Source of the DNA: an uncultured Bacteroidales bacterium
GTDB lineage: Bacteria > Bacteroidota > Bacteroidia > Bacteroidales > Paludibacteraceae
Length of the DNA stretch: 64,000 bases
Direction of reading: 5' to 3'
Assembly (NCBI GenBank): GCA_900319005.1
Contig: ONMV01000001.1
Span: forward strand, 62,001 to 126,000
This document shows positions 1 to 52,736 of the stretch, in pieces (within the stretch, counting starts at the first letter, position 1; every line of letters begins with the position of its first letter). The position numbers were made by a program, and so were the translations under genes. The notes below the pieces were generated by a model. The model was not told the DNA's origin. It worked only from the letters and a program-made list of their open reading frames with translations, and searched no databases.

Positions 1-1607
1 ACCAATCCACCGATGAGTGCCAAAAGAGCTACGGGACTGATGGTACTGATTAATTGTATTTGTGTGCGTTGCTCGTGTGCGCGGCGGTCATTGATAAGGC
101 GCATTGTGACGGTCTTTTCGCGCAGACTGATCAGTCCTTCGCTGTCGGTCATCCATAAGAGGGTATTGACCGCTAAGTCTCTATTGGAGAACTGCATACC
201 GCTGTATCGGTCGTACCCCATCGGAAGAGGTTGGCTGCGTTGGGTCTCGTTCAGTAATATACTACCGCTGCCGATCACCACTTGTCGTGTTTTTACGCTG
301 CTTTTACGAATAGGTTCGTCGCTTTCCACCCCTTCGGGTATCATGCGGTGAGCGTACGCACTGTTAAACTTTCCTTCCAATGATACAGCAACCGGTATGT
401 ATTGGTACTGAAAAGTGTTCAGATCGGGATTGACGTCGCTGAGGTTGACTTCCCCTGGTGTCGCGGTGACTCGGCTGGCGGTGCTGGTAGCTAACAGGAT
501 GCGTTTCTCTATTCCGTCCTCTCCGCCCACGGCATCTATCGGGCAGACGAATGTGCTCATCACTTGTCCTAAACCTTTGGTGATAGGCGAGCCTTCGCTG
601 GTAAGCAACAGAGGAGCAAAAGTCCAAGGCATAGGCTGCAGGTTGGGTTGCTGGGGATCGGTACTCACGTTGACCGGAATGGAGAGACATTGGATATCTT
701 GCACCAAGGCGGAATTGATTCGTACTCCGTAATGGAAAAGCATTTCGGTGAGGCCCAGATCGAGAGCAACGATAGGTGTGAATCCATCCTGTTGCAATAC
801 ATCTTCACTGAATCGTACGCCGTCTAAAGACCATAGAACCGTACCTCCGCGCATGATATACTGGTCGATGATGAACCGCTCGGCATCACTGAATGCAGTC
901 TGCGGACTGATCACTAACACCGCCTTGTATCCGTCTAGCAGATGAATGTTAATCGGTCTTTCGTCTAAGCTCCCTCTATCTACCTGAAAATACTTACTGA
1001 GTGCGGTCATGAGGTCGTAGGTATGAGCCTCATCGGGTTCGTTATGTCCCTCAAGGATAGCTATCCGTGGTGTCTCGGTGCGAGTCAGCCCTTGCAGTGC
1101 CTCCATGAACGCGAACTCGAGCTGCTCTATACTGGCGTTGAGGTTCTCTTCGCCGCTCAGACCGCGCGTGTTCTTTAGCAAGGAAACGACGGTCTGCCGC
1201 CCTTTATAGCACATCAGTGCATAGGGATAGATAGTGGTCTGTGCGGTCTTGCCGTTCTGCTCCCGCTCATGGATGACAATCGGTCGCAGACCTATTTTAT
1301 TAAGGCTGTCCGTCGAAGAGGAAGTTAATTCGTAATTTTTAATTTTTAATTGTCCAAACACTCCCATCTCTGCGAGTGTCTCTTCTGCTGCTTTCTTGAG
1401 CCGTCGAAAACCGGCATTGAGGTCGCCGTCTAGGAGCAACGTCACTTCGACAGGAGAATCGGTCTGCCTGAGAAGGGTTTTGGATGCTTCGCTCAGACTG
1501 TAGTGTTTATCGTCCGTCAGATCCCAACGTACGGGGCGCATTTGCAGCGCTCCGTATAGCAGAAGGATCAGACCTACAATAAATATGTACTGTGCGTTCT
1601 TTCGCAT
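1..1607 (-). CDS. gldG: GldG-like ABC transporter-associated protein, 3' end beyond the window
   Basis: Partial gene; about 535 residues are inside the window and the C-terminus lies off the left edge. The protein begins MRKNAQYIFIVGLILLLYG, with one N-terminal membrane segment (about residues 7-25), then the RWDLTDDKHYSLSEAS stretch typical of the GldG/ABC_transp_aux family, and a long periplasmic region. Family knowledge: GldG works with GldF and GldA in an ABC-type complex linked to gliding motility and type 9 secretion in Bacteroidota. The start ATG (1607-1605) lies 12 bp after the stop of the upstream isomerase gene, so the two are probably co-transcribed. A short 7-bp-period array (1333-1353) sits inside the frame and encodes an LKIKN stretch. 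The sprA gene elsewhere in the window supports a T9SS/gliding context. The last C-terminal membrane segment is presumably outside the window. Confidence 0.85.
   Translation of the reverse strand, partial: MRKNAQYIFIVGLILLLYGALQMRPVRWDLTDDKHYSLSEASKTLLRQTDSPVEVTLLLDGDLNAGFRRLKKAAEETLAEMGVFGQLKIKNYELTSSSTDSLNKIGLRPIVIHEREQNGKTAQTTIYPYALMCYKGRQTVVSLLKNTRGLSGEENLNASIEQLEFAFMEALQGLTRTETPRIAILEGHNEPDEAHTYDLMTALSKYFQVDRGSLDERPINIHLLDGYKAVLVISPQTAFSDAERFIIDQYIMRGGTVLWSLDGVRFSEDVLQQDGFTPIVALDLGLTEMLFHYGVRINSALVQDIQCLSIPVNVSTDPQQPNLQPMPWTFAPLLLTSEGSPITKGLGQVMSTFVCPIDAVGGEDGIEKRILLATSTASRVTATPGEVNLSDVNPDLNTFQYQYIPVAVSLEGKFNSAYAHRMIPEGVESDEPIRKSSVKTRQVVIGSGSILLNETQRSQPLPMGYDRYSGMQFSNRDLAVNTLLWMTDSEGLISLREKTVTMRLINDRRAHEQRTQIQLISTISPVALLALIGGL
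1333..1353. repeat. 7-bp-period array inside gldG
   Basis: Three consecutive 7-bp units (TAATTTT twice, then TAATTGT) lie in frame in gldG and translate to a basic LKIKN linker. The same peptide flavour (ELKIQNS, SKLKIEG) recurs in rimO at similar arrays. Confidence 0.7.
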
Positions 1608-1619
1608 CTCAATTGTCAA

Positions 1620-3410
1620 TTATTTCCTAATCTTCTCCCAAACGTTTTGGTCAATAACTACCGGATATTTGGCGCGTAGTTTTTTGATCCACTCTGCCTC
1701 CAGATAATCCTGATAGTCGGTAGTCACTTTGCCTTTGACGTCTTCCCATGTGGAGGGAGCTTTCAGTTTCTTTCCTACACAAACCACCACAGGGAACTCC
1801 TCGCTCGGGGTGTATTCGGCTTTCTTGAGCTTTAAACCATATTTGTCGATGGCAGCGTTCTTACCTTCTTCCCAAAGTCCCTGCTGCATCTTTACATAAT
1901 TGAGACTGTCGCAGTTAACGCGATGCTGGATATAGCTCTTCACTGAATCCGGCTGTGCGCTCTTGATAATAGCCTGTGCGGCTTTAGCGCTGCTCTTGTC
2001 TTTGCATTGGAGCAGATAACCCTTGAAGTGAGGTTTGTCCCATGTGTAGTTTTTCTTATGAGCAGCGAAAAAAGCCTCAAGACCTGCTGTATCTTTGGCT
2101 GCCTTATCCCATACTTCGCGGAGCGATACTTCAAAGAGCAAGATGCCGTCGTGGTATTCTTGTACGAGGTTCTTCAACTCTGGATATTTTTCCTCTAGGT
2201 GTGCATCGGCATAGGCCTTGACATCGGCATCGCTCATCTGAGCAGGCAAATGGTACTCGGCGCGTGTCTTGCGTGCAAAACTCTTGTCTGCCTCTTTGGC
2301 GCGCTCGTCGCGTTGTACTTGGCGGGCTATCTGGGCGCGCATCGAGTCCAACGGCAGGATGCCACGTTCGCCCTCTTTGAGGATGATATGCCATCCGTAG
2401 TTCGTACGGAAAGGTGCACTGATCTCAGAAGGCTGAAGACCGAAAGCTACATTCTCAAACTCTTTAACCATCATTCCTTTGCCGAACCATCCGAGTTCAC
2501 CTCCTTTGACACTACTGCCGCGGTCGTCCGACTCACGCATTGCTGTCTCAGCGAAGTTGTCTTTGTTCACTACGCGTGCAATGGAGTCTATCAGGGCTTT
2601 CTTGACTGCGTCCAGACTATCCGTCTTCTCGCCGCGGGGCACCATCTTCATGATATGACTCGCTTTGACCTCTTTATGATCGCGCTCTTCCTCTACTAAT
2701 ACAATATGAAAACCATACTGGGTGCGGAAAACCTCGCTGATCTGACCAACAGGCGTGTTATATACGGCCTCTTCCAACGGATAGACGTAACGGAAAGGAG
2801 TGATCCATCCCAGTTCACCACCGCTCTCGCCCACATTGGGGTCGGTGCTTACTTCGCGAGCTACTACATCGAAAGCCTCTACGGGTTGACGTTTCTCTAT
2901 CTCACGCCATTTCCCTTTCACTTTCTTCCTTTCAGTTTTCATCTTGCCGACAGTAACGCGTTCGCGGGCATCGTTGATCAGGGCCAGCACACTGTCCTCC
3001 TCTTGTTTGCTGGCGGTAGGGGGACATTGGATGGCGATATGCGCCGCACGACGATCTTTTGCCATATGACGCCAACTCATCTCAATCAGGCTGTCCATTG
3101 CTGCCTCGTCCTGCAGGTATTTGGGAGTAGCCTGAGCACGATAACCCTTCAACTCTTTACGGAAAGACTCGGTAGTGTCGATTCCCTGACTCTCTGCTTC
3201 TGCTACTTTAAGTTTGAAATTGATGAACATGTCGAGGTACTCGTCCATGGTCTTGGGATCGATAGCGCCCGCTTGGTTGTTCTTCTCATAAATGTACAAA
3301 AACTCCTCTGCACTGATAGCTTTACCATTGATCGTCATCAGTGTCTCACTCTGCGCCCAAACGCTCAGTCCGAAAGTAAGGGCAGCTGCAAATAAAAATG
3401 ATTTTTTCAT
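1620..3410 (-). CDS. Periplasmic peptidyl-prolyl isomerase with two PpiC (parvulin) domains
   Basis: 596 residues with a signal peptide (MKKSFLFAAALTFGLSVWA, cut before QSETL). A first parvulin domain spans about residues 115-243 (the GGELGWITPF and TQYGFHIVLVEE stretches) and a second about 245-345 (KASHIMKM, GGELGWFGKG, TNYGWHIILKEGER), followed by a long C-terminal region of unknown fold. By family this is a SurA/PrsA-like folding helper for exported proteins, probably periplasmic. It sits between the DHH phosphoesterase (20 bp upstream) and gldG (12 bp downstream), consistent with one transcript. Its position beside gldG suggests, as inference only, a role in folding envelope or secretion components. 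No damage is visible. Confidence 0.85.
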   Translation of the reverse strand: MKKSFLFAAALTFGLSVWAQSETLMTINGKAISAEEFLYIYEKNNQAGAIDPKTMDEYLDMFINFKLKVAEAESQGIDTTESFRKELKGYRAQATPKYLQDEAAMDSLIEMSWRHMAKDRRAAHIAIQCPPTASKQEEDSVLALINDARERVTVGKMKTERKKVKGKWREIEKRQPVEAFDVVAREVSTDPNVGESGGELGWITPFRYVYPLEEAVYNTPVGQISEVFRTQYGFHIVLVEEERDHKEVKASHIMKMVPRGEKTDSLDAVKKALIDSIARVVNKDNFAETAMRESDDRGSSVKGGELGWFGKGMMVKEFENVAFGLQPSEISAPFRTNYGWHIILKEGERGILPLDSMRAQIARQVQRDERAKEADKSFARKTRAEYHLPAQMSDADVKAYADAHLEEKYPELKNLVQEYHDGILLFEVSLREVWDKAAKDTAGLEAFFAAHKKNYTWDKPHFKGYLLQCKDKSSAKAAQAIIKSAQPDSVKSYIQHRVNCDSLNYVKMQQGLWEEGKNAAIDKYGLKLKKAEYTPSEEFPVVVCVGKKLKAPSTWEDVKGKVTTDYQDYLEAEWIKKLRAKYPVVIDQNVWEKIRK

Positions 3411-3430
3411 AAATATATAATCTTTAAATC

Positions 3431-4528
3431 TTAAATCTTCAAATAATTTTTGAAACTTTTTTCAAAAAGTGCTACTGCTTGTTCGAGGGTGCCGAATAGT
3501 TCACCTCCCGAAGCATTCATATGTCCTCCCCCGTGGAAAATTTCGGACGCCCATATGTTCACTGGTCGGTCGCCCTGCGAGCGGAAGGATATCCGGATTC
3601 GTGATTTGGGAGTGCCGGGTTTTGGGCGTTCCTCCCGCATATAAACCGAATAAAAGACATCGGCTATCTGTAGCGGCATGTTCACCAAACCCTCCGTATC
3701 GCCTATTTGGTAATGGTATCGCTCCAGTTCATCGGCGCTGAGGGTAATGAGTGCCAGGTGATATTCAGGGTAGATACGCATTTTGCGATACAGCGCATAT
3801 CCGGTCAATCGAACGCGGTCGGTGGAGTATTGGTTAAAGACCGCATTGTAAATCTCATCCTTTTTCACGCCCGCGCGTAAAAGAGCGGCTATGATGTCGT
3901 ATAACTCTGCGCGGGTGGAGTTATAACTGAAATTGCCCGTATCGGTCATCAAACCTGTGTAAATACAGGTTGCAATCTCTTGACTGATGGTAGTCGGCTG
4001 ACAACTCTCGGCGGTTAACAACCCATACATAATCTCGCAACTCGAGCTCGCCTCCGGGTGCGAGTGTATCTCCGACCAGAGCCCATCATCCACTAATCCT
4101 CTCACCCGCTCATCCATAATATGGTGGTCAATGAGTATCTTCGTACAAGGGTTGGCGAGCATTTTTTCGCCCATCGGACCAATCCGTTTAGGGTCGTTGA
4201 AGTCGGTGCAGATGATCAGATCTGCTTCGGCAATCAACCCGTTACAACGCTGCGGCTCTTTTTCATATATCAAAATCTGTGCCGAACCCGGCATCCAGTT
4301 GAAGAATGCCGCAAAAGCATTGGGCACAATGACGTGGACTGTCCTCTCGGCAGGCTCTGCCTGCGGTCCTGCAGCGATAGCGGTCTTGTTGTCACTGAGT
4401 GATGATCTTTTTGCGAAGCGGTCCATCACATAGTGATAGAGTGCCAAACTCGACCCCATGGCATCTCCATCCGGTGCCATGTGGGTAAAAATAACAATAT
4501 GTTTTGCTTTTTCAATGAATTCTTTCAT
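3431..4528 (-). CDS. DHH-family phosphoesterase (NrnA-like)
   Basis: 365 residues. The N-terminal DHH domain shows HMAPDGDAMGSSLAL (about 16-30), a TDFNDPKRIG stretch, and the DHH motif in ILIDHHIMDERV. The C-terminal DHHA1 domain shows FHGGGHMNASGGELFG. The family includes NrnA, which degrades very short RNA oligonucleotides and dephosphorylates pAp in the cytoplasm; the exact substrate here is inferred. Between about residues 37 and 65 there is a low-complexity linker (around AIAAGPQAEPAERT) whose DNA contains a small palindrome (4350-4364) similar to a degraded form of the REP element described below. The gene lies downstream of murG across a 7-bp-repeat spacer and upstream of the isomerase gene. 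Confidence 0.85.
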   Translation of the reverse strand: MKEFIEKAKHIVIFTHMAPDGDAMGSSLALYHYVMDRFAKRSSLSDNKTAIAAGPQAEPAERTVHVIVPNAFAAFFNWMPGSAQILIYEKEPQRCNGLIAEADLIICTDFNDPKRIGPMGEKMLANPCTKILIDHHIMDERVRGLVDDGLWSEIHSHPEASSSCEIMYGLLTAESCQPTTISQEIATCIYTGLMTDTGNFSYNSTRAELYDIIAALLRAGVKKDEIYNAVFNQYSTDRVRLTGYALYRKMRIYPEYHLALITLSADELERYHYQIGDTEGLVNMPLQIADVFYSVYMREERPKPGTPKSRIRISFRSQGDRPVNIWASEIFHGGGHMNASGGELFGTLEQAVALFEKSFKNYLKI

Positions 4529-4541: not shown

Positions 4542-4604
4542 GGTCATTGGTCGTTGGTCGATGGTCCTTCGTCCTTCTTCCTTTCAATTTTCATTTTTCA
4601 ATTA
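4542..4604. repeat. Nine-unit 7-bp array between murG and the DHH gene
   Basis: Nine consecutive 7-bp units run without a break from GGTCATT through GGTCGTT, GGTCCTT and CTTCCTT to TCAATTT and TCAATTA. The sequence drifts from one motif to another while the 7-bp period holds. The last two units contain the stop codon and last codons of murG. Confidence 0.8.
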
Positions 4605-5667
4605 GTTTCATCACTTCCTCTGCGATGCGTTTGGCGGAGTCTTTCTGCGCCAATTGGAGAATGTTGGTATGTAGTTTCTGCAGTTGTTTCTCGTCCTGGA
4701 GTAGCTGTAGTGCGGTGGGGAGCAGTTTCTCGGAAGCCTCTGCGTCGCGTACCAATACCGCCGCCTCTTTCTTAACCAGCGCCATCGCGTTATGCGTCTG
4801 ATGATCTTCCGCTACGTTAGGCGACGGCACGAGTATCGACGGTTTACCCAAAAGACATAGCTCACTGATGGATGAAGCACCCGCACGCGAGATCACCAAA
4901 TCTGCGTTCGCATATTGGTCGGGCATATCCGAGAGAAAATCATGCACCTCAATGTTGGAGGGGCTGCCCGCTGCTTCCCATGCAGCCTTACAGCGCTCGT
5001 AATAGGTCTTTCCGGTCTGCCAGACAATATGAATAGCGCTGAGCCCTGAAACCTGACTACTGATAGCCCCCATCACCGCCTCATTGATCGTCCGTGCACC
5101 CAGAGACCCGCCGATGATCAAAAGTCTCTTGACTCCTGACTCTTGACTCTTGACTCCGGTCGTCAGGTTTTGCCGAACAGGATTTCCGGTCAGGATAATT
5201 TTCTCGGCGGGGAAGAAACGTTCCATCCCTTCGTACGCTACGCATATCTTCGCAGCTTTGTTCTTGAGGATTTTGTTAGTTACGCCGGCAAAACCGTTTT
5301 GCTCTTGCAGCAGGATTGGTATTCCCATCTGAGATGCTGCCCACATTGCCGCACCGGACGCATAACCGCCGACTCCCACTCCTACGTCCGGACGAAATTC
5401 GCGGATGATACGCTTCACCATACGGATGGATTTGAAGAGGTCAAAAAGCACGGAGATATTCTTCCAAGGCTGCGAACGGTTAAAACCACGTACCGGCAAG
5501 CCGACAATCTCGTAACCCGCTTGAGGTACGCGCTCCATCTCCATGCGACCTAACGCGCCTACAAACAATATCTGCGCTTCCGGATCTAACTCCTTCAACG
5601 CGTTCGCTATACTCACGGCAGGGAAGATATGACCTCCGGTTCCTCCTCCTGAAATAAGATATCTCAT
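4591..5667 (-). CDS. murG: UDP-GlcNAc:lipid I N-acetylglucosaminyltransferase MurG
   Basis: 358 residues, the usual family length. The glycine-rich GGTGGHIFPAVSIA motif is at residues 7-20, the second GVGGYASGAAMWA loop follows, LLIIGGSLGARTIN marks the start of the C-terminal Rossmann domain, and ISRAGASSISELCLLGKPSILVPSP is the donor-binding region (residues around 265-290). MurG adds GlcNAc to lipid I to make lipid II on the inner face of the membrane. It is the first gene of a minus-strand operon with its own promoter at 5703-5734 and is not next to ftsW/murC, unlike many dcw clusters. Residues around 175 (TTGVKSQESGVKRL) are encoded by a four-unit 7-bp array just before the second domain. 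Confidence 0.97.
   Translation of the reverse strand: MRYLISGGGTGGHIFPAVSIANALKELDPEAQILFVGALGRMEMERVPQAGYEIVGLPVRGFNRSQPWKNISVLFDLFKSIRMVKRIIREFRPDVGVGVGGYASGAAMWAASQMGIPILLQEQNGFAGVTNKILKNKAAKICVAYEGMERFFPAEKIILTGNPVRQNLTTGVKSQESGVKRLLIIGGSLGARTINEAVMGAISSQVSGLSAIHIVWQTGKTYYERCKAAWEAAGSPSNIEVHDFLSDMPDQYANADLVISRAGASSISELCLLGKPSILVPSPNVAEDHQTHNAMALVKKEAAVLVRDAEASEKLLPTALQLLQDEKQLQKLHTNILQLAQKDSAKRIAEEVMKLIEK
5129..5156. repeat. 7-bp array inside murG
   Basis: Four consecutive units (TTGACTC, CTGACTC, TTGACTC, TTGACTC on the plus strand) encode the variable interdomain linker of MurG, directly before the conserved LLIIGGSLG strand. Confidence 0.85.
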
Positions 5668-5804: not shown

Positions 5805-7811
5805 ATGAAGAAATCAACTTTTTTTCAATTAACAATGATTATTCTTTGGGCGGCACTTGTTTGTGCGTGTCGGCCGAAAGAGCAAAAATTCCAATACAAC
5901 GTGGATAAGTTTTATGACCTGGAAATCCTCCGTTACGATGTACCGGAGTTCGATTCGTTGAGCTTGCAGCAGAAGCAACTGCTCTACTGCTTGACTGAAG
6001 CTGCCCTTTGGGGACGAGACATCCTCTTTGACCAAAACGGCCGTTACAACCTCCGTATTCGTCGTACCTGCGAGGCGCTCTATGCGCAAAAGGACAAAGT
6101 ACAATGTACCGACCAAGATTGGTCCGTCTTCGAGAAATACCTCAAACGCGTCTGGTTCTCCAACGGTATCCATCATCATTATTCCGAGGATAAGTTCCTT
6201 CCGGAATTCACCCAAGAATGGTTCGTTAACGCCTGCGAGAAAGCCGGCGTGACCTACGATCAGGCTATCCTGCCGGTGATGTTCGACCCCGCTGTCATGC
6301 CCAAACGCACTACCGCACAGGACGGCGTGGATCTGGTTCTCAACTCCGCCGGTAACTACTACGGCGAGGGCGTCACCCAAGCCGAAGCGGAAGCATGGTA
6401 CGCTGCTCATAAGGACGACTCACCAGAACCCCTCTGGATCGGTCTCAACTCCCAACTCGTCAAGAACGAGAAAGGCGAAATCGAAGAGCGTGTCTATAAA
6501 GTGGGCGGACTCTACGGTGAGGCACTCGAGCATGTGGTGTATTGGCTGAAAGAGGCGCTTCAATATGCGGAGAACGACCTGCAACGCGAGGTAATCAAGA
6601 AGATGATCTCCTTCAACGAAACGGGTGACCTCAAGACCTTCAATGAATATTGTATCGCGTGGGTGCGCGATCTCGACAGCCGTGTGGACTACGTCAACGG
6701 CTTCACGGAGACCTATTCCGACCCGCTCGGCATCACCGGAACATGGGAGTCTATGGTTAACTTCAAAGACCTCGCGGCTACCAAACGTACCCAACTCATC
6801 TCCGACAACGCCCAGTGGTTTGAGGACCACTCCACCACCGACCCCAAATACAAAAAAGAAGAGGTCAAAGGTGTAACCGCCAAGGTCATCACCGCCGCTA
6901 TCCTTGCCGGCGATTGTTATCCCGCTACGCCCATCGGCATTAACCTGCCGAACGCTAACTGGATCCGCAAAGAGTACGGCTCCAAGTCCGTCACCATTGA
7001 CAACCTCATGCACGCATACAACGAGGCAGCGAAGGGTAACGGCTTCAACGAGGAGTTCATGATCGACGATGAGATCCGCAGCCTCTATGAGAAATACGGA
7101 GCCCTCTGCGGCGACCTGCATACCGACCTTCACGAGTGTGTCGGTCACGGTTCCGGCAAACTCCTGCCGGGTGTGACCAAAGATGCCCTCAAAGAGCACG
7201 CTTCGACCATCGAGGAAGCCCGCGCAGACCTCTTTGGCTTGTATTTCTTGGGCGACCCGAAACTCGTGGAACTCGGTCTCCTGCCCAACGAAGAAGCTTT
7301 CAAAGCCGGTTATTACCAGCAGCAGATGAACGGTCTCATGACCCAACTCGTGCGTATTGAGCCGGGCAAAGACATTGAGGAAGCACATATGCGTAACCGC
7401 CAACTCATCGCCAACTGGGTCTATGAGCACGCGACGAACAAAGAGGTGGAGATCATCGAGCGTGACGGCAAGCACTACCTCCGCATCAACGATTACCAGG
7501 GTCTCCGCCGTCTCTATGGAGAACTCCTCGCAGAGATCCAACGCATCACTTCCGAAGGCGACTACGCTGCCGCCAAAGAGATGGTCGAGAAATACGCCGT
7601 CAAGGTCAACCAAGACCTCCACAAAGAGATTCTTGCCCGTTATCAGAAACTCAATCTTGCGCCCTACAAAGGTTTCGTGAACCCTGTTTACACCGCCGTG
7701 CGCGATGCCGAAGGCAACATCACGGATGTCAAGATCGACTTCACGGAAGGTTATATCGAGCAACACCTCCGTTATTCTCGCGACTATAGTCCGCTGCCAG
7801 ACATCAATTAA
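5805..7811 (+). CDS. Dipeptidyl peptidase III-like metallopeptidase (family M49), lipoprotein
   Basis: 668 residues from the ATG at 5805; an upstream in-frame ATG at 5751 lies within the promoter and is rejected. A signal with lipobox-like LVCAC places the lipidated cysteine at residue 22, so the enzyme is probably anchored in an envelope membrane. The M49 zinc motif HECVGH starts at residue 443 (base 7131), and the second motif EEARAD at residue 470 supplies the third zinc ligand. Bacteroides DPP III shares the shorter HExxGH form. M49 enzymes release dipeptides from the N-terminus of short peptides; the preferred peptide here is unknown. It has its own promoter. A REP-like palindrome lies just after the stop. 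Confidence 0.92.
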   Translation: MKKSTFFQLTMIILWAALVCACRPKEQKFQYNVDKFYDLEILRYDVPEFDSLSLQQKQLLYCLTEAALWGRDILFDQNGRYNLRIRRTCEALYAQKDKVQCTDQDWSVFEKYLKRVWFSNGIHHHYSEDKFLPEFTQEWFVNACEKAGVTYDQAILPVMFDPAVMPKRTTAQDGVDLVLNSAGNYYGEGVTQAEAEAWYAAHKDDSPEPLWIGLNSQLVKNEKGEIEERVYKVGGLYGEALEHVVYWLKEALQYAENDLQREVIKKMISFNETGDLKTFNEYCIAWVRDLDSRVDYVNGFTETYSDPLGITGTWESMVNFKDLAATKRTQLISDNAQWFEDHSTTDPKYKKEEVKGVTAKVITAAILAGDCYPATPIGINLPNANWIRKEYGSKSVTIDNLMHAYNEAAKGNGFNEEFMIDDEIRSLYEKYGALCGDLHTDLHECVGHGSGKLLPGVTKDALKEHASTIEEARADLFGLYFLGDPKLVELGLLPNEEAFKAGYYQQQMNGLMTQLVRIEPGKDIEEAHMRNRQLIANWVYEHATNKEVEIIERDGKHYLRINDYQGLRRLYGELLAEIQRITSEGDYAAAKEMVEKYAVKVNQDLHKEILARYQKLNLAPYKGFVNPVYTAVRDAEGNITDVKIDFTEGYIEQHLRYSRDYSPLPDIN

Positions 7812-10720: not shown

Positions 10721-10784
10721 GAACACCGTACACCGTACACCGTACACCATACACTATACACCATACACCGTACACCAAAACACC
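10721..10784. repeat. GTACACC/ATACACC array in the leader of the lipid kinase gene
   Basis: Eight 7-bp units and a final 8-bp unit fill the whole 5' leader up to the ATG at 10785. It is the same repeat as inside the glycosyltransferase at 9647-9709. The leader has no obvious purine-rich ribosome binding site. Confidence 0.9.
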
Positions 10785-11708: not shown

Positions 11709-11720
11709 TCCACTTTCCTC

Positions 11721-11755
11721 TTTCACCTTTCAATTTTCAATTTTCAATTTTCATG
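11721..11755. repeat. TTTCAAT array running into a start codon
   Basis: Five 7-bp units (TTTCACC, three TTTCAAT, TTTCATG). The final unit supplies the ATG of the following kinase gene. Confidence 0.9.
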
Positions 11756-14532: not shown

Positions 14533-14568
14533 CTCATCCTTTCATCTTTCACCTTTCATCTTTCACCT
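14533..14568. repeat. CTTTCAT/CTTTCAC array between sprA and the NadR-like gene
   Basis: Alternating 7-bp units CTTTCAT and CTTTCAC fill the spacer (five units). Confidence 0.85.
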
Positions 14569-22292: not shown

Positions 22293-22334
22293 TTTTTACC
22301 TTTCAATTTTCACCTTTCATTTTTCACCTTTCAA
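22286..22334. repeat. CTTTCAA/TTTTCAC array between ruvA and sprA
   Basis: Seven units alternate CTTTCAA or CTTTCAT with TTTTTAC or TTTTCAC, covering the ruvA-sprA spacer plus the first codons of sprA and the last codons of ruvA. Confidence 0.85.
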
Positions 22335-28093: not shown

Positions 28094-28094
28094 A

Positions 28095-28136
28095 TTTGAT
28101 ATTTGATATTTGAAATTTAAAATTTGAGATTTTATG
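28095..28136. repeat. TTTGATA array ending in a start codon
   Basis: Six 7-bp units (TTTGATA twice, TTTGAAA, TTTAAAA, TTTGAGA, TTTTATG) fill the spacer after the surface-protein stop. The last unit contains the ATG of the small peptide gene. Confidence 0.9.
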
Positions 28137-30559: not shown

Positions 30560-30636
30560 ATAAAATCACCAACATTCCTCTGGAAACTCGAACTGGAAGC
30601 CTACGAAGGGTAATTGACAATTGACAATTGAAAAAG

Positions 30637-30670: not shown

Positions 30671-30739
30671 TTTCTTGCGCTTTTAAGTCCGTACAAAACT
30701 CCGTAAGCCCTTTGTAAATTGTGAATTGTGAATTGTCAA

Positions 30740-43016: not shown

Positions 43017-45760
43017 GACTTCTCTAAAATCTTTTTCAGGTACTTACCTGTGTAACTCTTTTCGCATTGTGCTACCTCTTCGGGCGTACCGGCGCAAACG
43101 ACCTCCCCGCCTTCTTTACCTCCCTCGGGACCTAAGTCAATCACATGGTCGGCAGCCAATATAACTGCAGGGTTATGCTCGATGATGATGACGGTATGTC
43201 CCTTGCTGATGAGCCGGTTTAGCGCTTTCAGCAGCACTTCTACATCGCGGTGATGCAGACCGGTAGTAGGCTCGTCAAAGACAAAAATAGTGGGGGTGTT
43301 CTCCTCTTGTGCCAGGAACGATGCTAATTTGACACGCTGACTCTCGCCGCCCGAGAGCGTGCTGCTGCTCTGACCCAATTGAACGTACCCGATACCTACG
43401 TCCTGCAAGGGTTTGAGCCGCTTGACAATCTTCGCACACTCGGGGTCCTCGCTGAAGAACTCCACCGCCTGATTGACGGTCATGCAGAGGATGTCATAAA
43501 TCGACTTGCCGCGGTAATGAACATCCAGAATATCTTGCTTGAACCGCTTGCCGTGACACTGTTCGCATTCGAGCACCAGATCCGCCATGAACTGCATCTC
43601 GATCGTGATCGTTCCTTCGCCCTCACAGGTCTCGCATCGTCCGCCCGGTGTGTTGAAACTGAAATGTGCGGGCGTCAGACCCAACTGTTTGGATAGCGGC
43701 TGTTCGGCATAGAGACGTCTTATCTCGTCGTACGCCTTGAGGTAGGTCACAGGGTTGCTGCGGCTTGAACGACTCAGCGGATTCTGGTCCACAAACTCGA
43801 TATCCCGCATCAACTGCAGACTACCACGCAAGTGACCGAAATCGCCTGTATGTTCCGCAAATACACCGCCGTAATGTTTCTTAAGGGCAGGGTAGAGCAC
43901 TTTGCTCACCAGCGAACTCTTGCCGCTACCACTCACACCGGTCACTACCGTCATCACATGCAGCGGAAAACGCACCGTGATATGCTTCAGGTTGTTCTCG
44001 CAAGCCCCTTCCACCTCGATATAATTATTCCAATGCCTCCTTTGCGCAGGGATAGCAAACGTGAACATCTCCTCGCGAGGCGTACCTTCATACACCACTT
44101 CGCCACCATGACGACCCGCTTCCGGACCAATCTCGATGATGTGATCTGCGGCAGCGATGATGTCCTCGTCATGCTCCACCACCACGATCGTGTTGCCTAA
44201 ATCCCGTAACTCGCGCAGCACATGAATCAGTCGTTCGGTGTCGCGGGGATGAAGACCGATAGACGGCTCGTCCAGCACGTACAGCGAACCTACCAGGCTG
44301 CTACCTAACGATTTAGCGAGACTGATACGCTGACTCTCACCGCCGGAGAGAGTCGTGCATTGACGGTTGAGCGTCAGATAACTCAGACCCACGTCTTGCA
44401 TGAACTGCAAACGGCTGTTGATCTCCTTCAGAATCATATCTGCCGCTAACTGCTCCGTATTGTTCAATTCAATATGACGGAACCACTCCTGCAGCTCCGA
44501 TAGCGGCATCGTGCAAAGTGTCTGGATGTTCTTGCCGCTCACAAAGACGTACTCCGCCTCTTTGCGCAGATGCAGACCGTGACAAACGGGACAGGTCGTC
44601 TTGCCTTTGTAGCGAGCTAACATCACTTTGTATTGCAGACGGTTGTACTGCTGGCTCTCCAACTCATGGAAGAAGGCGTTCAGTCCCCGGAAATACTCGT
44701 TACCCGTCCAGATCAGATGTTTCTGCTCCTGGGTCAACGCATAGAACGGGGTGTGAATCGGGAAATCAAACTTTCCGGCGTTATATACCAGCTCTTCCTG
44801 CCATTTAGCCATTTTCTCGCTTTGCCAGCAAGCGATCGCTCCTTCGTACACCGATTTCGATTTATCGGGTACTACCAAGTCTTCATCGATACCCATCACA
44901 ACGCCTACACCCTTGCATTCGGGACAGGCTCCTATCGGATTATTGAAGTCGAATAAATGCTCCGTCGGCTCCATGAACGATATACCATCCGCCTCAAACC
45001 GCTCGGTAAAGACTTTTACTCTTGGTACATTGCCTATTTGTACTTGAATCTGACATTCTCCTTGTCCCTCGTAGTATGCCGTCTGGACGCTGTCGGCAAA
45101 GCGGTTACTCGTTGCCTGCTCATGATCCACGATGAGACGGTCCACTAACAAATACGCTTCATGACCTTCTGCTTTCTCCCATGTTTTGTCGTCTAACCGA
45201 ACGGCGTCGCCGTCAATGAAGAGACGGCTGAAACCCTGACTCTGCCAGAATGCCAACTGCTCTTGAAGCGTCCTTCCTTCAGGCACGATAATCGGACTAA
45301 GCAGGTACAGTCGTGTGCCGATGGGTTGTTCCTCCATGTATTGCACGACGTCACGGATGGTGTTTCGCTTTACTTCTTCCCCGCTCACGGGCGAGTAGGT
45401 GTGACCTACGCGCGCATAAAGAAGTTTCAGATAGTCGTATATCTCCGTCACCGTACCTACGGTCGAACGGGGATTCCTGCTTGTCACTTTCTGCTGGATA
45501 GCGATAGCTGGCGGGATGCCTTCTATCTTCTCCACCTCCGGTTTCTGCATTCGTCCCATGAACTGCCGTGCGTAAGCGCTCAGACTCTCCACATAGCGTC
45601 GCTGACCTTCCGCATAAAGCGTGTCAAAAGCCAGCGAACTCTTTCCGCTACCGCTCACGCCGGTTATCACCACCAATTTGTTGCGAGGTATATCTACCGT
45701 CACATGCTTCAAATTGTGTGTCTCCGCCCCTTCAATATGTATAAAATCTTCAACTCTCAA
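43013..45760 (-). CDS. uvrA: Excinuclease ABC subunit A (UvrA)
   Basis: 915 residues. First ATPase: ITGVSGSGKSSLAFDTLYAEGQ (given in part: ITGVSGSGKSSLAFDT) near residue 33, then YARQFMGRMQKPEVE and IEGIPPAIAIQQ; a zinc site CPECKGVG; signature TLSGGESQRISLAKSLGSS. Second ATPase: VVTGVSGSGKSSLVSKVL, zinc site CETCEGEG with CEQCHGKRF, STLSGGESQRVKLA and the Walker B FVFDEPTTGLHHRD. UvrA recognises DNA lesions in nucleotide-excision repair. It lies between the HU-LysM gene and the polysaccharide genes with spacings of 3 bp and a 4-bp overlap. No irregularity. Confidence 0.98.
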   Translation of the reverse strand: MRVEDFIHIEGAETHNLKHVTVDIPRNKLVVITGVSGSGKSSLAFDTLYAEGQRRYVESLSAYARQFMGRMQKPEVEKIEGIPPAIAIQQKVTSRNPRSTVGTVTEIYDYLKLLYARVGHTYSPVSGEEVKRNTIRDVVQYMEEQPIGTRLYLLSPIIVPEGRTLQEQLAFWQSQGFSRLFIDGDAVRLDDKTWEKAEGHEAYLLVDRLIVDHEQATSNRFADSVQTAYYEGQGECQIQVQIGNVPRVKVFTERFEADGISFMEPTEHLFDFNNPIGACPECKGVGVVMGIDEDLVVPDKSKSVYEGAIACWQSEKMAKWQEELVYNAGKFDFPIHTPFYALTQEQKHLIWTGNEYFRGLNAFFHELESQQYNRLQYKVMLARYKGKTTCPVCHGLHLRKEAEYVFVSGKNIQTLCTMPLSELQEWFRHIELNNTEQLAADMILKEINSRLQFMQDVGLSYLTLNRQCTTLSGGESQRISLAKSLGSSLVGSLYVLDEPSIGLHPRDTERLIHVLRELRDLGNTIVVVEHDEDIIAAADHIIEIGPEAGRHGGEVVYEGTPREEMFTFAIPAQRRHWNNYIEVEGACENNLKHITVRFPLHVMTVVTGVSGSGKSSLVSKVLYPALKKHYGGVFAEHTGDFGHLRGSLQLMRDIEFVDQNPLSRSSRSNPVTYLKAYDEIRRLYAEQPLSKQLGLTPAHFSFNTPGGRCETCEGEGTITIEMQFMADLVLECEQCHGKRFKQDILDVHYRGKSIYDILCMTVNQAVEFFSEDPECAKIVKRLKPLQDVGIGYVQLGQSSSTLSGGESQRVKLASFLAQEENTPTIFVFDEPTTGLHHRDVEVLLKALNRLISKGHTVIIIEHNPAVILAADHVIDLGPEGGKEGGEVVCAGTPEEVAQCEKSYTGKYLKKILEKS

Positions 45761-45763
45761 TTC

Positions 45764-46807
45764 TCAATTCCCAATTTTTCTCCTCGCCTCTTCCCGAATT
45801 CGCAGGAATCGTTCATCTGTAGTATCTCGCATGGCTGCGTTCAGTTTGGGAACGCGAATAGGTGTCCCTACAGGAATCAGGCTGGGGTTGGGGAGCTGCT
45901 CTTTGTTGGCAGCATAGATATACGGCCAATAGGCCTTGTCGCCGTAATGTTTCTTGGCTATCCATGCCAATCGACTGCCTTCCGTAATCTCTTCTACCAC
46001 CAGAATCTCATCAAACGTCCATTCTTCCTCCTCCTTTGTACTTTGTACTTCGTCTCTTTGTACTTCGTCCCTTTGTACTTCGTCCCTTTGTACTTTGTTC
46101 TCTACCTTCTCACTTCTAATCTCTTCTCTCGGATTCACCAACTCGTCTATCCATGACCCCAATTGGCTGCGGAAGAAGAAATATCCTCCTAATAGTAGCA
46201 TCAACAAAATCACCACGCAGATCAGCGTATCTCGCATAAAGTGGTATTCTTTCTTCGGTTTCTTCGGTTTCTCCGGCTCCTCCGGTTTCTCTGGTACCTC
46301 CGGTTTCTCCAGTTCAACAACAGGCTCAGGCTCAACCACAGGTTCCGGCTCAACTACTTCCTCCTTTGTCCTTTGTCCATCGTCCTTCGTCCCTTGTACT
46401 TCTTCCTCCTTCATCTGCCCTAACTCCCCCAATATATCTACGATCTCTTCTGCCTGCATCCCGAGTTTCTTCAGCGGGTCAATCGGTTCGTTTGCCTCGC
46501 TGACAGCTGACGGCTGACGACCTTCAACCAGCTCTTTCACACCTGCTTCAGGCACGAAAGCAATCTTGTTATATCCCTCGATTGTTATCTCCTCGCCGGT
46601 AGTCACATTGACGCTCTTACGCGGCGCTACGGCTTGTAACTTGAATGTACCCAAACCGTTCACTCTGACCTGCTTGTCGCTTTTCAGAGCTGCTACCAAC
46701 TGTTCGTTGAATGTGTTCAGAAACGTGTTGGCTTCTTTCTCGCTGACGCCCGCACGAGACGCTAATGTACGTCTTAATTCGGTCCAACTAAGTTTGTTAT
46801 CTCCCAT
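45764..46807 (-). CDS. HU-type DNA-binding domain, membrane helix and LysM domain in one protein
   Basis: 347 residues. Residues 1-90 match HU/IHF (WTELRRTLASRAGVSEKEAN, VRVNGLGTFKLQ). A Glu/Pro-rich linker (about 130-195) is followed by one membrane helix (TLICVVILLMLLLGGYFFF, about 203-221), a second charged linker containing VQRDE repeats, and a LysM-like end (about 270-330: EITEGSRLAWIAKKHYGD, YIYAANKEQL, LIPVGTPIRVP). By topology the HU part would be cytoplasmic and LysM would face peptidoglycan, so it could tether DNA to the wall (inference). Linkers are expanded by CTTTGTA/CTTCGTC-type arrays at 46033-46100 and 46368-46405. It follows a canonical HU gene after 3 bp. Confidence 0.83.
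   Translation of the reverse strand: MGDNKLSWTELRRTLASRAGVSEKEANTFLNTFNEQLVAALKSDKQVRVNGLGTFKLQAVAPRKSVNVTTGEEITIEGYNKIAFVPEAGVKELVEGRQPSAVSEANEPIDPLKKLGMQAEEIVDILGELGQMKEEEVQGTKDDGQRTKEEVVEPEPVVEPEPVVELEKPEVPEKPEEPEKPKKPKKEYHFMRDTLICVVILLMLLLGGYFFFRSQLGSWIDELVNPREEIRSEKVENKVQRDEVQRDEVQRDEVQSTKEEEEWTFDEILVVEEITEGSRLAWIAKKHYGDKAYWPYIYAANKEQLPNPSLIPVGTPIRVPKLNAAMRDTTDERFLRIREEARRKIGN
46033..46100. repeat. ACTTCGT/CCCTTTGT array in the HU-LysM gene
   Basis: About nine units alternate 7 and 8 bp, so two units make 15 bp and the protein repeats VQRDE three times. Related arrays are at about 46368-46405 and in rimO at 47196-47230 and 47826-47864. Confidence 0.88.
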
Positions 46808-46810
46808 CGT

Positions 46811-47089: not shown

Positions 47090-47096
47090 ATCTATA

Positions 47097-47127
47097 ATTA
47101 TCAATTCTCAATTTTCAATTCTCAATT
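47097..47127. repeat. TCAATTC/TCAATTT array between rimO and the HU gene
   Basis: Four 7-bp units fill the spacer and cover the rimO stop codon. Confidence 0.85.
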
Positions 47128-48512
47128 ATCTCCTCCCCATACAGGTCAAACTCCTCCGCTTTCGTGATCTTCACATCCACAAACTCACCGATTTGTCCCT
47201 TGTCCTTTGTCCCTTGTCCCTTTGTACTTATCAGGACTTCGCAATCCACCTCCGGACTGTCGTATTGTGTCCTGCCGATGAAATACTCGCCTTCCTCTCG
47301 GTCGATGATCACGCGTTCTCTCTTGCCTACAAACCGCTGCATAAGCTCCCCGCTTATCTCTTGTTGGATTGCCATCAGTTCTGCCGCCCGGGCTTCTTTC
47401 ACCTCTTGAGGCACATCGTCTTTATAATGCCGGTTCGCGTATGTCCCTTCTTCATCCGAATAGGCGAAGCAACCCATTCGGTCAAACCGCATCTCTTTCA
47501 CCCACGCTTTCAGCTCCTCAAAATCTTCCTCCGTCTCTCCGGGGTGTCCCACCAGCAAAGTAGTCCGAATACAAATGCCCGGCACTTTCTCTCTGATCTT
47601 ACGGATCAACGCATCTTGCTCTGCTCGTGTTATATGACGCCGCATCAGTCCTAACATATGATCCGTGCAGTGTTGCAGGGCTATATCGAGATATTTGCAC
47701 ACATTCTTATGCTTCGCCATCACGTCCAGCAATCCTTCCGGAAAATCCGTCGGGTACGCGTAGTGCAGTCGGATCCATTCCACACCCTCTATCTGTGCCA
47801 TTTGGTCTATCAGTTCCGGCAACAAATGCTTCTTTGTACTTTGTACTTTGTCCCTTTGTCCCTTAACTAGATCCAGCCCATAACTACTCAGATCCTGGGC
47901 AATCACATTGAACTCTTTCACGCCTTGTCCGACCAACCATCTTACCTCGTCCAGTATCTCCTCCATCGGTCGGCTGGTATGTCTGCCTGTTATCAATGGT
48001 ATCGCGCAGTACGAACACATACGGTTGCATCCCTCGCTAATCTTCAGATAAGCATAGTGATTCGGTGTCGTCAACTTCCGTTCATACGAACCACATCCTT
48101 CAATTTTTAATTTTGAAATAATCGTTCCCTCGGGATAAGAATTTTGAATTTTTAATTCTTTGGTCAATTCGAGGAAATCGAATTTACCAAAGTAGCTATC
48201 CACCTCCGGCAGTTCTTCTTCCAATTCCGCCCGATACCGTTCGCTCAGGCATCCCATGACGATCAGTTTACGCAGTTTCCCTTTCTTCTTCCTTTCCGCC
48301 ATCTGGAGGATCATGTTGATACTCTCCTCTTTGGCATCGCCGATGAATCCGCACGTGTTAATCACGCACACTTCCCCTTTCGGTTCTTCCGGGTCATGTA
48401 CACACGTCCATCCTGCCGCCTCTAACTGCCGCATCACCCGCTCTGCATCTACCAGATTCTTCGAGCATCCCAACGTTATAAAATCAACTACGCCTTTTTG
48501 CACAATCGTCAA
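47115..48512 (-). CDS. rimO: Ribosomal protein S12 methylthiotransferase RimO
   Basis: 465 residues, about 30 more than typical. The MTTase domain starts VDFITLGCSKNLVDAERVM with Cys at the first 4Fe-4S cluster (also CVINTCGFIGDAKEES and IVMGCLSERY). The radical-SAM motif is SEGCNRMCSYCAIPLITG (CxxxCxxC). A TRAM-like end covers VDVKITKAEEFDLYGEEI. RimO adds a methylthio group to an aspartate of ribosomal protein S12. The extra length comes from repeat-derived inserts: VKGQRDKVQSTKK (47826-47864) and STKGQGTKDKGQ (47196-47230), plus LKIQN/LKIEG linkers around 48105-48160. Confidence 0.95.
   Translation of the reverse strand: MTIVQKGVVDFITLGCSKNLVDAERVMRQLEAAGWTCVHDPEEPKGEVCVINTCGFIGDAKEESINMILQMAERKKKGKLRKLIVMGCLSERYRAELEEELPEVDSYFGKFDFLELTKELKIQNSYPEGTIISKLKIEGCGSYERKLTTPNHYAYLKISEGCNRMCSYCAIPLITGRHTSRPMEEILDEVRWLVGQGVKEFNVIAQDLSSYGLDLVKGQRDKVQSTKKHLLPELIDQMAQIEGVEWIRLHYAYPTDFPEGLLDVMAKHKNVCKYLDIALQHCTDHMLGLMRRHITRAEQDALIRKIREKVPGICIRTTLLVGHPGETEEDFEELKAWVKEMRFDRMGCFAYSDEEGTYANRHYKDDVPQEVKEARAAELMAIQQEISGELMQRFVGKRERVIIDREEGEYFIGRTQYDSPEVDCEVLISTKGQGTKDKGQIGEFVDVKITKAEEFDLYGEEIIEN
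47196..47230. repeat. TTGTCCC-type array inside rimO (TRAM region)
   Basis: Five units of TTGTCCC/TTGTCCT and TTTGTAC encode STKGQGTKDKGQ in a surface loop of the C-terminal domain. Confidence 0.85.
47826..47864. repeat. TTTGTAC/TTTGTCC array inside rimO (radical-SAM domain)
   Basis: Five units, the last one stretched, encode GQRDKVQSTKK between two conserved helices. Confidence 0.85.
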
Positions 48513-48563
48513 TTGTCAATTATCAATTCTCAATTCTCAATTCTCAATTCTCAATCGTCAATT
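48508..48563. repeat. Eight-unit GTCAATT/CTCAATT array between recQ and rimO
   Basis: Units GTCAATT, GTCAATT, ATCAATT, CTCAATT (three times), CTCAATC and GTCAATT run head to tail from the rimO start into the last codons of recQ. The rimO ribosome binding region lies within the array. Confidence 0.92.
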
Positions 48564-50794: not shown

Positions 50795-50846
50795 TCCTCA
50801 TGCATTTTTTTTCAAAAAAATCCTTTCACTCCCGTCGATTTTCAAA

Positions 50847-50881
50847 GACCAATGACCAACGACAAATGACAAATGACCAAT
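50847..50881. repeat. GACCAAT/GACAAAT array
   Basis: Five exact 7-bp units upstream of recQ. Confidence 0.9.
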
Positions 50882-50904
50882 TACTTCATCCTTCCAATAG
50901 TATG

Positions 50905-50963: not shown

Positions 50964-51045
50964 TAACACGACCATCTCGGGACCAAGTCCCGACATCGTC
51001 CTAACGACGTCCTAATGAGGACCTATTGTTTTTTTATGTTTATAT

Positions 51046-51170: not shown

Positions 51171-51251
51171 GGTTTTATAGGTTTTTTTCTTTAATCCTAT
51201 ATACCGTTTTTTTGAAAAAAACACAAAAAATGAAAAAAAATACACTTACCT

Positions 51252-51283
51252 CTTGCACAATCAAAAAAAATGTTGTAATTTTG
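51252..51283 (+). promoter_or_regulatory. Promoter of the MFS-lipoprotein-SusCD operon
   Basis: CTTG (51252-51255), 20 bp, TAATTTTG (51276-51283). The 88-bp leader that follows contains two small hairpins (CCGAT/ATCGG and GGCAT/ATGCC). Confidence 0.78.
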
Positions 51284-51371
51284 TGCCCGATTTTAAACAT
51301 CGGCATTTTTAATGCCTGAAAAAAGAACGTTTTAAATAATAAACGAACTTAAGTTTAATAAGGAAAACACT

Positions 51372-52736
51372 ATGCAACAACGTAATTTAACGTTTAGACA
51401 ACTTTTCAATCTGAGCTTCGGCTTCTTTGGAGTACAGATTGCTTATGCGCTTCAGAGCGCGAACATCTCCCGTATTTTTGCTACCTTAGGAGCTGATCCT
51501 CACACCTTGAGTTTCTTCTGGATTCTCCCCCCGCTGATGGGTATGATTGTGCAGCCGTTGGTAGGAAAGTACTCTGACAAGACTTGGAATAGTCTCGGTC
51601 GCCGCAAACCCTACCTGCTCGTAGGCGCGCTCATCGCGGTTGCGGTAATGCTCCTGTTGCCCAACGCCGGGAATTTCACTTTCACCCAGAGCCTCTTCTT
51701 GGGCTTGAACGCTGCCATGTGGTTTGGTCTTTTCAGTCTTATGTTCCTTGATACCTCTATTAATATCGCCATGCAGCCGTTTAAGATGATGGTCGGCGAC
51801 ATGGTCAATGAGGAGCAGAAGGGAACTGCCTATGCTATCCAATCTGCTCTCTGTAACGCCGGTTCGGTGGTAGGCTACCTCTTCCCGATCTTCTTTACTT
51901 GGATTGGTATTGCTAACACAGCCCCGGATGGTGTCATCCCTGATTCCGTCAAATGGTCTTTCTACGCGGGCGCGTTAATCCTTATTCTTTGTTCGCTATA
52001 TACCTTCGCTACAGTCAAAGAACTCAATCCGCAGGAGTACGCTGAGTTCCACGGCATCAAAGAAGAAAATCATAAATCTGAAATCATAAATAATAAATCC
52101 GAAGAGAAGGGCTTCATAGACCTTCTCAAGGACGCTCCCTCCGCTTTCTGGACGGTCGGACTCGTGCAGTTCTTCTGCTGGGCGGCTTTCATGTATATGT
52201 GGACTTATTCGAACGGCGCAATCGCTGCTAACTGTTTCGGTTGGGATGAGTTGGTAGCAAATGCATCGGAAGAGGCATTCCAGATCGCCGGTAACTGGGT
52301 CGGCGTAGTCTTCTGCGTACAGGCGGTCGGCTCGCTTCTCTGGGCGGCTTTCCTGCCCAAACTCGAGCACTGGTTCGGAAATAAAGGCGCTTATGCTATT
52401 TCCCTCATCGTCGGTGCTATCGGCTTCATCTCTATCTATTATGTGCATGACCAATATGCTCTCTGGCTCAGCTATGCTCTCATCGGTGCTGCTTGGGCTG
52501 CTATGCTGGCGTTGCCCTTCACAATCGTGACGAACGCTATCAAAGGTGGAAACATGGGATATTACCTCGGCCTCTTCAACTGCACGATCTGTGTTCCGCA
52601 AATCGTTGCAGCCCTCTGCGGTGGTTTCTTCCTTAAATATATATGCGCGCACGTACAAGCCGGAATGCTCGTCGTTGCGGGAGTCCTTCTCCTCCTCGGC
52701 GCCGCGTCCGTCTTCTTAATCAAGGAGAAAGAATAA
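51372..52736 (+). CDS. MFS sugar transporter (SLC45/sucrose-maltose-type)
   Basis: 454 residues with twelve predicted membrane segments. The N-terminal LSFGFFGVQIAYALQSANIS and the loop VGKYSDKTWNSLGRRKPYLL are typical of the glycoside-transporting MFS branch related to plant sucrose carriers. It probably imports a disaccharide or oligosaccharide across the inner membrane using a cation gradient; the sugar is unknown. As first gene of the plus-strand operon with lipoprotein, SusC and SusD it would supply the inner-membrane step of the PUL. A central cytoplasmic loop (about 233-247, NHKSEIINNKSEEKG) is encoded by AAATCAT/AAATAAT 7-bp units at 52065-52100. Confidence 0.88.
   Translation: MQQRNLTFRQLFNLSFGFFGVQIAYALQSANISRIFATLGADPHTLSFFWILPPLMGMIVQPLVGKYSDKTWNSLGRRKPYLLVGALIAVAVMLLLPNAGNFTFTQSLFLGLNAAMWFGLFSLMFLDTSINIAMQPFKMMVGDMVNEEQKGTAYAIQSALCNAGSVVGYLFPIFFTWIGIANTAPDGVIPDSVKWSFYAGALILILCSLYTFATVKELNPQEYAEFHGIKEENHKSEIINNKSEEKGFIDLLKDAPSAFWTVGLVQFFCWAAFMYMWTYSNGAIAANCFGWDELVANASEEAFQIAGNWVGVVFCVQAVGSLLWAAFLPKLEHWFGNKGAYAISLIVGAIGFISIYYVHDQYALWLSYALIGAAWAAMLALPFTIVTNAIKGGNMGYYLGLFNCTICVPQIVAALCGGFFLKYICAHVQAGMLVVAGVLLLLGAASVFLIKEKE
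52065..52100. repeat. AAATCAT/AAATAAT array in the central loop of the MFS gene
   Basis: Five 7-bp units between the two six-helix halves of the transporter. Confidence 0.85.

Follow-up and report, generated by a model that had tools for sequence, protein, structure and literature searches.

Tandem repeats with a 7-bp step are familiar from heterocystous cyanobacteria, whose short tandemly repeated repetitive (STRR) sequences are built from several units. Small intergenic hairpin elements of the REP and ERIC type (repetitive extragenic palindromic; enterobacterial repetitive intergenic consensus) are dispersed, imperfectly palindromic and located at gene ends. Here we describe period-7 arrays, which by description are like STRR, in the genome of an uncultured member of the Bacteroidales (Paludibacteraceae), together with a heptad-armed element of about 135 bp. 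The element is like REP and ERIC in dispersal, imperfect symmetry and position, but its arms are tandem heptads and no transposase could be tied to it. The window, by which we mean the whole 64,000-nt stretch analysed, is G000:C34:62001-126000, from an assembly (G000) of 2.18 Mb in 41 contigs that is 85% complete. The closest named records are metagenome assemblies of uncultured Bacteroidales or Paludibacteraceae, mostly ruminant where a source is named.

According to Mrázek 2007 (as cited in PMC4679880 and PMC4692102), heptanucleotides are over-represented in the long simple sequence repeats (LSSR) of prokaryotes, and a polymerase-sized slippage step was proposed. Huang and Mrázek 2014 (PMC4060949) covered many phyla including Bacteroidetes, and in that survey repeats with longer units were generally normally represented. 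Rehm 2015 (PMC4692102) described GGGAATC and GGGGA(T/C)T repeats in Xanthomonas and Nostoc, with lengths differing between Xcc and Xac. MacGregor 2015 (PMC4679880) described TAACTGA direct repeats in Beggiatoaceae, Cyanobacteria and five Bacteroidetes including Paludibacter. Unlike the repeats of Mrázek 2007, the arrays found here are short and imperfect, their units vary between close species at one site, almost half are intragenic, and congeners differ in their step (7 or 11). Like those of Rehm 2015, they form a genome-wide degenerate heptamer dialect (GGGANTN there, ARTTGAN here) and lie closer to the upstream gene. However, G-tracts are nearly absent here (three or four Gs on either strand in two of 52 unit classes, AAGGGAC and AACCCCT, one array each), strand shares are about equal there while a strong sense-stop bias was found here, and the intragenic share is 7-11% there against 87 of 187 arrays here. 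The repeat of MacGregor 2015 is likewise a stop-containing heptamer, mainly forward and ahead of start codons, but it is one unit across phyla, whereas many units turn over among congeners here. Its class (AACTGAT) was not among the 52 unit classes found in a set of 115 arrays; a single G007 array had one TAACTGA among its units. A preliminary description of the window knew of no such repeats in this lineage. For these uncultured gut Bacteroidales, the literature searched gave no account of the arrays, nor of unit turnover at fixed sites. Taken broadly the statement does not hold, given the repeats in MacGregor's five Bacteroidetes and the bacterial over-representation in Rehm 2015 and Mrázek 2007. 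What is new is that such arrays occur in this lineage, that their units turn over at fixed sites and that genes carry so many of them; heptanucleotide repeats as a kind were already known (Mrázek; Rehm; MacGregor).

Window arrays were collected with Tandem Repeats Finder (TRF) at score 30 and with a detector of our own, which required 12 of 14 positions to match at a lag of 7. TRF returned 31 partly overlapping rows at period 7 and the detector 25 separate arrays, in agreement with the more than twenty reported earlier, and the units named then were located (Table 1). The window contained 18 lag-7 runs of at least 10 matches; 12 runs had 12 matches or more, whereas Markov sequences (ten of order 2 and ten of order 4) gave 0.0. 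The excess over shuffled sequence is genome-wide. In 464 kb of G000 (the window and twenty 20-kb stretches), lag-7 runs with 10 or more matches numbered 75, where order-3 Markov versions of the same pieces gave 0.4; lags 8, 9, 10 and 11 had 12, 5, 0 and 22 such runs, respectively. The lag spectrum had additional peaks at 14, 21 and 28, at 11, 22 and 33, and at 15-16. Lag-7 runs are denser in the window than in most of the sampled sequence (18 in its 64 kb versus 57 in the remaining 400 kb). A census of 864 kb (40% of G000) gave 187 arrays of up to 65 nt, mostly of 3-5 units and many with mismatches; the Markov sequences gave almost no lag-7 runs. Three consecutive copies of TTTCAAT with up to two mismatches had 72 matches in the genome (overlaps within an array counted apart) and the reversed control had none. 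With its tandem-heptamer excess over the model and its arrays beyond the expected length, G000 belongs among the heptanucleotide-rich (LSSR) genomes. Contrary to the first claim, the period is not strictly 7, because 8-base steps, 15-base (7+8) units and 11-mers are also present.

A 7-base unit disrupts the reading frame, so selection within genes should favour periods of 6 or 9. Within open reading frames (ORFs; simple greedy caller, at least 90 codons), however, the numbers of runs at lags 7, 6 and 9 were 51, 5 and 8 in G000 and 59, 15 and 18 in 24 congeners (one assembly per species, 19-140 kb sampled from each). Because period 7 outnumbers the frame-safe periods inside ORFs, the step points to mutation and not to selection. 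The frame can be repaired by mixed steps, such as 8+8+7+7 nt in a rimO loop and the 15-base unit in ORFs. A frame rule based on whole units (3n extra units) was rejected, as array lengths showed no clean 3n pattern.

ORFs made up 92% of the 864 kb, and 100 of the 187 arrays lay outside them. The upstream stop codon was touched by 50 of 75 arrays in co-directional spacers of G000 and by 45 of 64 in congeners. Where an array had stops on a single strand, this was mostly the sense strand in these spacers (sense to antisense 49:5 in G000, 38:3 in congeners), and the ratio was reversed inside ORFs (3:38 and 10:39). Control windows at equal offset at other junctions had a sense-stop bias as well (125:37 and 112:41), which the arrays exceeded. 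Within genes, arrays were present in the housekeeping genes rimO, dxs and birA, and peptides coded by arrays, e.g. NSQLSI, were found in housekeeping proteins. An AlphaFold2 model of RimO (12 sequences; mean predicted local distance difference test score, pLDDT, 71) had pLDDT below 50 at residues 120-142, 205-223 and 430-433, and also at 53-56, 151-178 and 352-358. Computed from their coordinates, the three intragenic rimO arrays code for residues of about 115-122, 216-225 and 428-437, and each overlaps a segment of pLDDT below 50 as well as a gapped part of the PDB 4JC0 alignment. Arrays persist where the stop of one gene meets the start of the next, and in protein loops that tolerate insertions. 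The earlier placement of window arrays in spacers and genes was correct for many of them, but the array assigned to the gene of the 918-residue protein lies on its stop codon, and the one at 48503-48562 constitutes the recQ-rimO junction.

Arrays also occur beyond this assembly, and period-7 sites recurred in relatives' records from several independent projects. Orthologous sites were compared as distinct middle sequences with both flanks aligned, from 32 loci, of which some share a genome. Of 26 stretches homologous to the recQ-rimO junction, 10 were 53-65 nt shorter than that of G000 and nearly spacerless. Other units occupied the site elsewhere: against eight AATTGAN in G000, there was GTCGTTG/A in G015, about six GATTTGT in G005, GTTGATA in the L094 record and an 11-mer in G009. 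At the rimO loop at 47830, 20 of 26 stretches were exactly 30 nt shorter and all 26 length differences were divisible by three; the unit was identical to that of G000 in G015 and differed in sequence in G006, L081, L089 and L094. The comparison of dxs (TIGR00204) took in 24 genomes from the genus, leaving aside only G004, and six from other families, with repeats identified by eye. Repeats of 7 or 8 bases with differing units appeared in at least one of five variable regions in ten genomes (G000, G001, G002, G003, G006, G007, G014, G015, G018 and G022), and the loops of the six outgroups were of nearly constant length. The unit turns over at fixed sites. Because arrays at one site differ in unit, a single conserved binding motif is disfavoured.

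Array density among the 24 congeners ranged from 0 to 58 per 100 kb (that of G018 from 31 kb and that of G010 from 19 kb), and the sampled sequence of 22 genomes contained 372 arrays. Nine of the 25 genus genomes had at least 15 per 100 kb (G000, G001, G003, G006, G007, G014, G015, G018 and G021). Samples of 20 kb around rimO from each of five genomes in other families (100 kb in all) gave no period-7 arrays; scattered 7-base arrays were found at some loci of other Bacteroidota. In a tree from a quick search (RimO and DXS without loop columns; G004 by rimO only), the nine rich genomes all fell within one supported clade of 17, and the rich/poor state required five changes, at least three of them forced by starred branches. 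Three poor species (G009, G011 and G013) were richer in period 11, with 18-25 lag-11 runs per 100 kb (L067, L071, L240, L243, L244, L247, L248 and L268). In the pooled congeners, 68 lag-11 runs lay outside ORFs and 14 inside.

Four candidate activities were considered and rejected. Loss of mismatch repair does not fit, as MutS1 was over the cut-off in 24 of 25 genomes and the exception is 54% complete. Templating by a reverse transcriptase does not fit either (RVT_1 in 5 of 25, none in G000). The Y-family polymerase domain IMS occurred in 21 of 25 genomes, in all nine rich ones and in 12 of the 16 poor, and a link is unsupported because the tree offers too few independent pairs. Y1_Tnp, the domain of the REP-associated tyrosine transposase (RAYT), was present in 11 of 25 genomes, both rich and poor. 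These four activities do not account for the arrays.

The arrays probably reflect a lineage-specific mutational process with a seven-base step and a filter of survival, with some added copying of units between sites. Such a process would add DNA in steps of seven bases, sometimes eight or 11, most likely through strand slippage or template switching in DNA synthesis; slippage would be the motor, and most arrays would be neutral. Compact-operon stop/start junctions would retain arrays, as a unit that carries the upstream stop codon would harm neither gene. Protein loops would retain arrays that lack sense stops and have a total length divisible by three. Unit sequences would additionally be copied from site to site.

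Several observations weigh against this explanation. Whole-unit slippage starting from a single seed, with a frame filter, predicts peaks at 28 or 49 nt in the lengths of intragenic arrays, and there was none. Much of the strand rule follows from the arrays sitting on the stop codon, since the control windows were biased too. One dxs array was letter-identical in G000 and G015, whose DXS proteins are 87% alike, so array turnover is not universal or not always fast. Neither MutS1 nor IMS, RVT_1 or Y1_Tnp convincingly tracked array density across the 25 genomes. Among 115 arrays there were 243 pairs with identical units, where random heptamers from nearby gave 5.9; the six most frequent units were about 30- to 80-fold above background heptamer seeding. 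Because species have unit dialects and one heptad-armed element has been amplified, local slippage alone is insufficient. The ARTTGAN family accounted for 71 of the 187 arrays of G000; its final position varied (A 111, G 68, T 56, C 26), and at each of the others a single base made up 83% or more of the units, partly by construction, as membership was defined on AATTGA. A code of six fixed positions and one free was rejected: a simple shuffle gave 25.7 arrays against the 41 observed, and a null that kept the threshold removed the signal (33 pairs versus 29.2 +- 3.9). Together, dialects and the amplified element imply, as a pattern, additional copying of units from one site to another.

This copying could be the main process, in which case heptad units, alone or as the ends of small hairpin elements, would spread from site to site, perhaps by a transposase-like or template-switching route, and slippage would merely trim them. 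We regard this as possible but doubtful. In its favour, units were shared more often within a genome than across genomes: with G000 excluded, identical-unit pairs within genomes numbered 89, and shuffling gave 31 on average and 55 at most. The element of about 135 bp, whose arms are inverted heptad runs of the ACGATTG type, had model matches at at least 36 places in G000 (54 strand-wise matches) and at few in each of the 24 congeners among the matches listed (at least 4 in G021, 3 in G002, 2 in G001, and 1 each in G018 and G009). These are lower bounds that favour G000, as 122 of about 500-3700 first-look candidates were scored per genome and the model was built from 12 G000 copies. The left-arm pattern with up to three mismatches occurred 39, 21 and 16 times in G000, G002 and G021 (exact: 25, 2 and 2). 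Relatives share the arm-like heptads, but amplification of the full element is seen in G000. At all four of its places (L019:8117, L027:4995, L176:6451 and L176:9046), a 41-bp imperfect palindrome (TCTCGCTTTGCTCGAACGATTATTTTCGACAAGCGAAAATC) was flanked on one or both sides by units of the AATTGAN type. Against spread, the large element overlapped only 11 of 187 arrays, and most of the listed AATTGAN arrays shared no flank (three shared the 41-bp palindrome and two another flank). G000 had no match to a reverse-transcriptase family, and the REP-associated transposase did not follow array richness. At two element sites, the aligned flanks were 3-53 nt apart in 13 of 16 congener rows, and some of these intervals were heptad arrays with other units (AATTGAA in G015, ATTTGAA(G) in G002, AGTCGAA in G018); a different module was present once each in G015 (91 nt) and G018 (120 nt), and G002 shared one element (94 nt).

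More speculatively, and in our opinion improbably, a putative DNA-synthesis activity with a seven-base step would write and copy species-specific heptads into any permissive site, core-enzyme loops included, and occasionally spawn mobile hairpin elements such as the 135-bp one, with a step of 7 or 11 that could evolve in each species.

It is unlikely that the arrays at junctions serve as regulatory sites in RNA or DNA, acting in translation or mRNA processing as in MacGregor's proposal for TAACTGA. AATTGAN stood in sense in co-directional spacers (35:2), frequently near the next start, and all 13 spacer copies of the 135-bp element with an exact core were in sense, the core 7-35 nt past the upstream stop. 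The control junctions, however, were already sense-biased, a single junction carries different units across species, and AATTGAN-family units also lie deep within ORFs. A conserved RNA structure of the element was rejected, as only one of 17 predicted pairs showed two-sided change. A scan of the window for known RNA families gave only tRNA at gathering scores.

We give very little weight to phase variation, in which gain or loss of a unit would toggle genes. A 7-base unit does shift the frame, and neuO is reportedly switched through heptanucleotide units. The arrays, though, mostly have 3-5 units, many of them mismatched, they occur in housekeeping genes, and the frame was intact in every one of the rimO loop homologues. 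Chance or assembly artefact can be dismissed: the named relatives that share sites are metagenome assemblies and G000 itself is incomplete, but Markov shuffles and other families lack the excess and the same sites were present in records of independent projects.

The genus is a natural experiment on why heptanucleotides dominate the tandem repeats of some bacterial genomes, which is an open question. Closely related species differ in being rich or poor in period 7, or in having more of period 11; many of the hundreds of arrays are at comparable sites; and arrays lie inside genes, where selection would favour other periods. The arrays also show how loops of proteins and spacers of operons can acquire sequence in uncultured gut bacteria. 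Annotation calls for caution, as peptides coded by arrays lie inside housekeeping proteins.

The features of the window are collected in Table 1. The array earlier described at 4542-4604 as drifting through several motifs exists as a stretch; it may consist of several adjacent arrays, because TRF divides it into three.

Table 1. Period-7 arrays and one related element in the window (positions are those of the window; the last column gives the unit under which the preliminary description listed the array).
Feature	Positions	Location	Evidence or remark	Unit as first listed
TAATTTT array	1326-1353	spacer	lag-7 detector	
Drifting period-7 stretch, GGTCNTT to TTTCAAT	4542-4603	between NrnA-like gene and murG, over murG 3' end	TRF and detector	
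CTCTTGA array	5126-5159	within murG	detector	
AAAGTAC short array	6089-6109	within 686-residue ORF	detector	
Heptad-armed element, truncated copy (left arm; ends approximate)	8560-8623 (-)	antisense in AroA-like ORF	core 8596-8610; not among full-element model matches listed	
(G/A)TACACC array, 9 units	9647-9711	AroA-like ORF, 3' part	detector	GTACACC
(G/A)TACACC array, 8 units	10721-10776	lipid-kinase ORF, 5' end	detector	GTACACC
TTTTCAA array	11720-11753	junction lipid kinase / AmgK-like	detector	TTTCAAT
CTTTCAT/CTTTCAC array	14539-14569	junction 2574-residue ORF / NadR-like gene	detector	
ACCTTTC/AATTTTC array	22284-22334	between ruvA and 2574-residue ORF	TRF only	
AAATTTG/ATATTTG array	28092-28125	over stop codon of 918-residue ORF	detector	TTTGATA-type
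AATTGAC array	30609-30634	spacer	detector	GTCAATT-type
AATTGTG array	30712-30741	LRR gene 3' end	detector	
ATTTATG array	32462-32492	Pel9A-like ORF, 3' part	detector	
GATGTAC array	34930-34958	268-residue ORF	detector	
GATGGTG array	36369-36391	GT4 ORF	detector	
TCAACTC array (sense GAGTTGA)	39987-40006	gene junction	13/18 homologous stretches 9-18 nt shorter	
TCAATTC array (sense GAATTGA)	45750-45776	junction HU-gene / uvrA	site units CTTTCAC in G015, TTTTCAG in G007	
TACTTTG array	46032-46053	HU-domain gene	detector	TTTGTAC
CTTTGTC array	46357-46385	HU-domain gene	detector	
GCTGACG array	46499-46521	HU-domain gene	site units CTTTCGA/CTTTCCA in G015 and G003	
AATTCTC array	47096-47130	rimO 3' end, codes final residues and stop	G021 site units GTGCATT	
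TTGTCCC array	47193-47222	rimO C-terminal loop	detector, homologue alignment, RimO model	
TTTGTAC/TTTGTCC array	47830-47856	rimO loop	detector, homologue alignment, RimO model	TTTGTAC
GAATTTT array	48139-48160	rimO inter-domain linker	detector, homologue alignment, RimO model	
AATTGAN x8 array	48503-48562	fills recQ-rimO junction	detector and homologous stretches	GTCAATT-type
CAATGAC array	50843-50884	spacer next to recQ	detector	GACCAAT-type
AAATCAT degenerate array	52067-52099	MFS ORF	TRF only	

Other repeated sequences were found at the same kinds of site. Palindromes of the CCCTCCC...GGGAGGG type occupied loops or junctions that hold heptad arrays elsewhere, in L060 (G021), L081, L094, L040 (G007) and L054 (G026). 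A palindrome GCCGGATRGCATCCGGC was present in G021, L080 and L089 among the same permissive sites (rimO loops, the recQ-rimO junction and upstream of rimO). In some species such palindromes lay within the rimO frame. The 15-bp (7+8) unit CATTTACCATTTGGT recurred in G000 (e.g. L013:5255, L163:8719 and L022:8984), its complement reading DQMVN; its core had 12 matches in 864 kb, nine in ORFs and seven of these antisense. At L177:7889-7923 a heptad array makes part of an apparent signal peptide of a 452-residue ORF (LLLFSIFSFQFSICQAQS).

A RAYT-like gene at 60655-61716 (+) of the window matched NF047646 with 60.8 bits, below the cut-off of 80. No period-7 array was found in its flanks, only palindromes of the CTCGGCAT type, which stand ahead of the gene (60588-60603 and 60621-60639) and also inside it (about 61075-61089 and 61605-61622). 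Gene and palindromes are likely a REP/RAYT pair in Bacteroidales. Upstream regions of G000 (e.g. L013:7063 and L020:6420) contained recurring GCATATATGCAAAATTTGTAGTACCTTTGCA strings, which fit the Bacteroidetes promoter motif TAnnTTTG.

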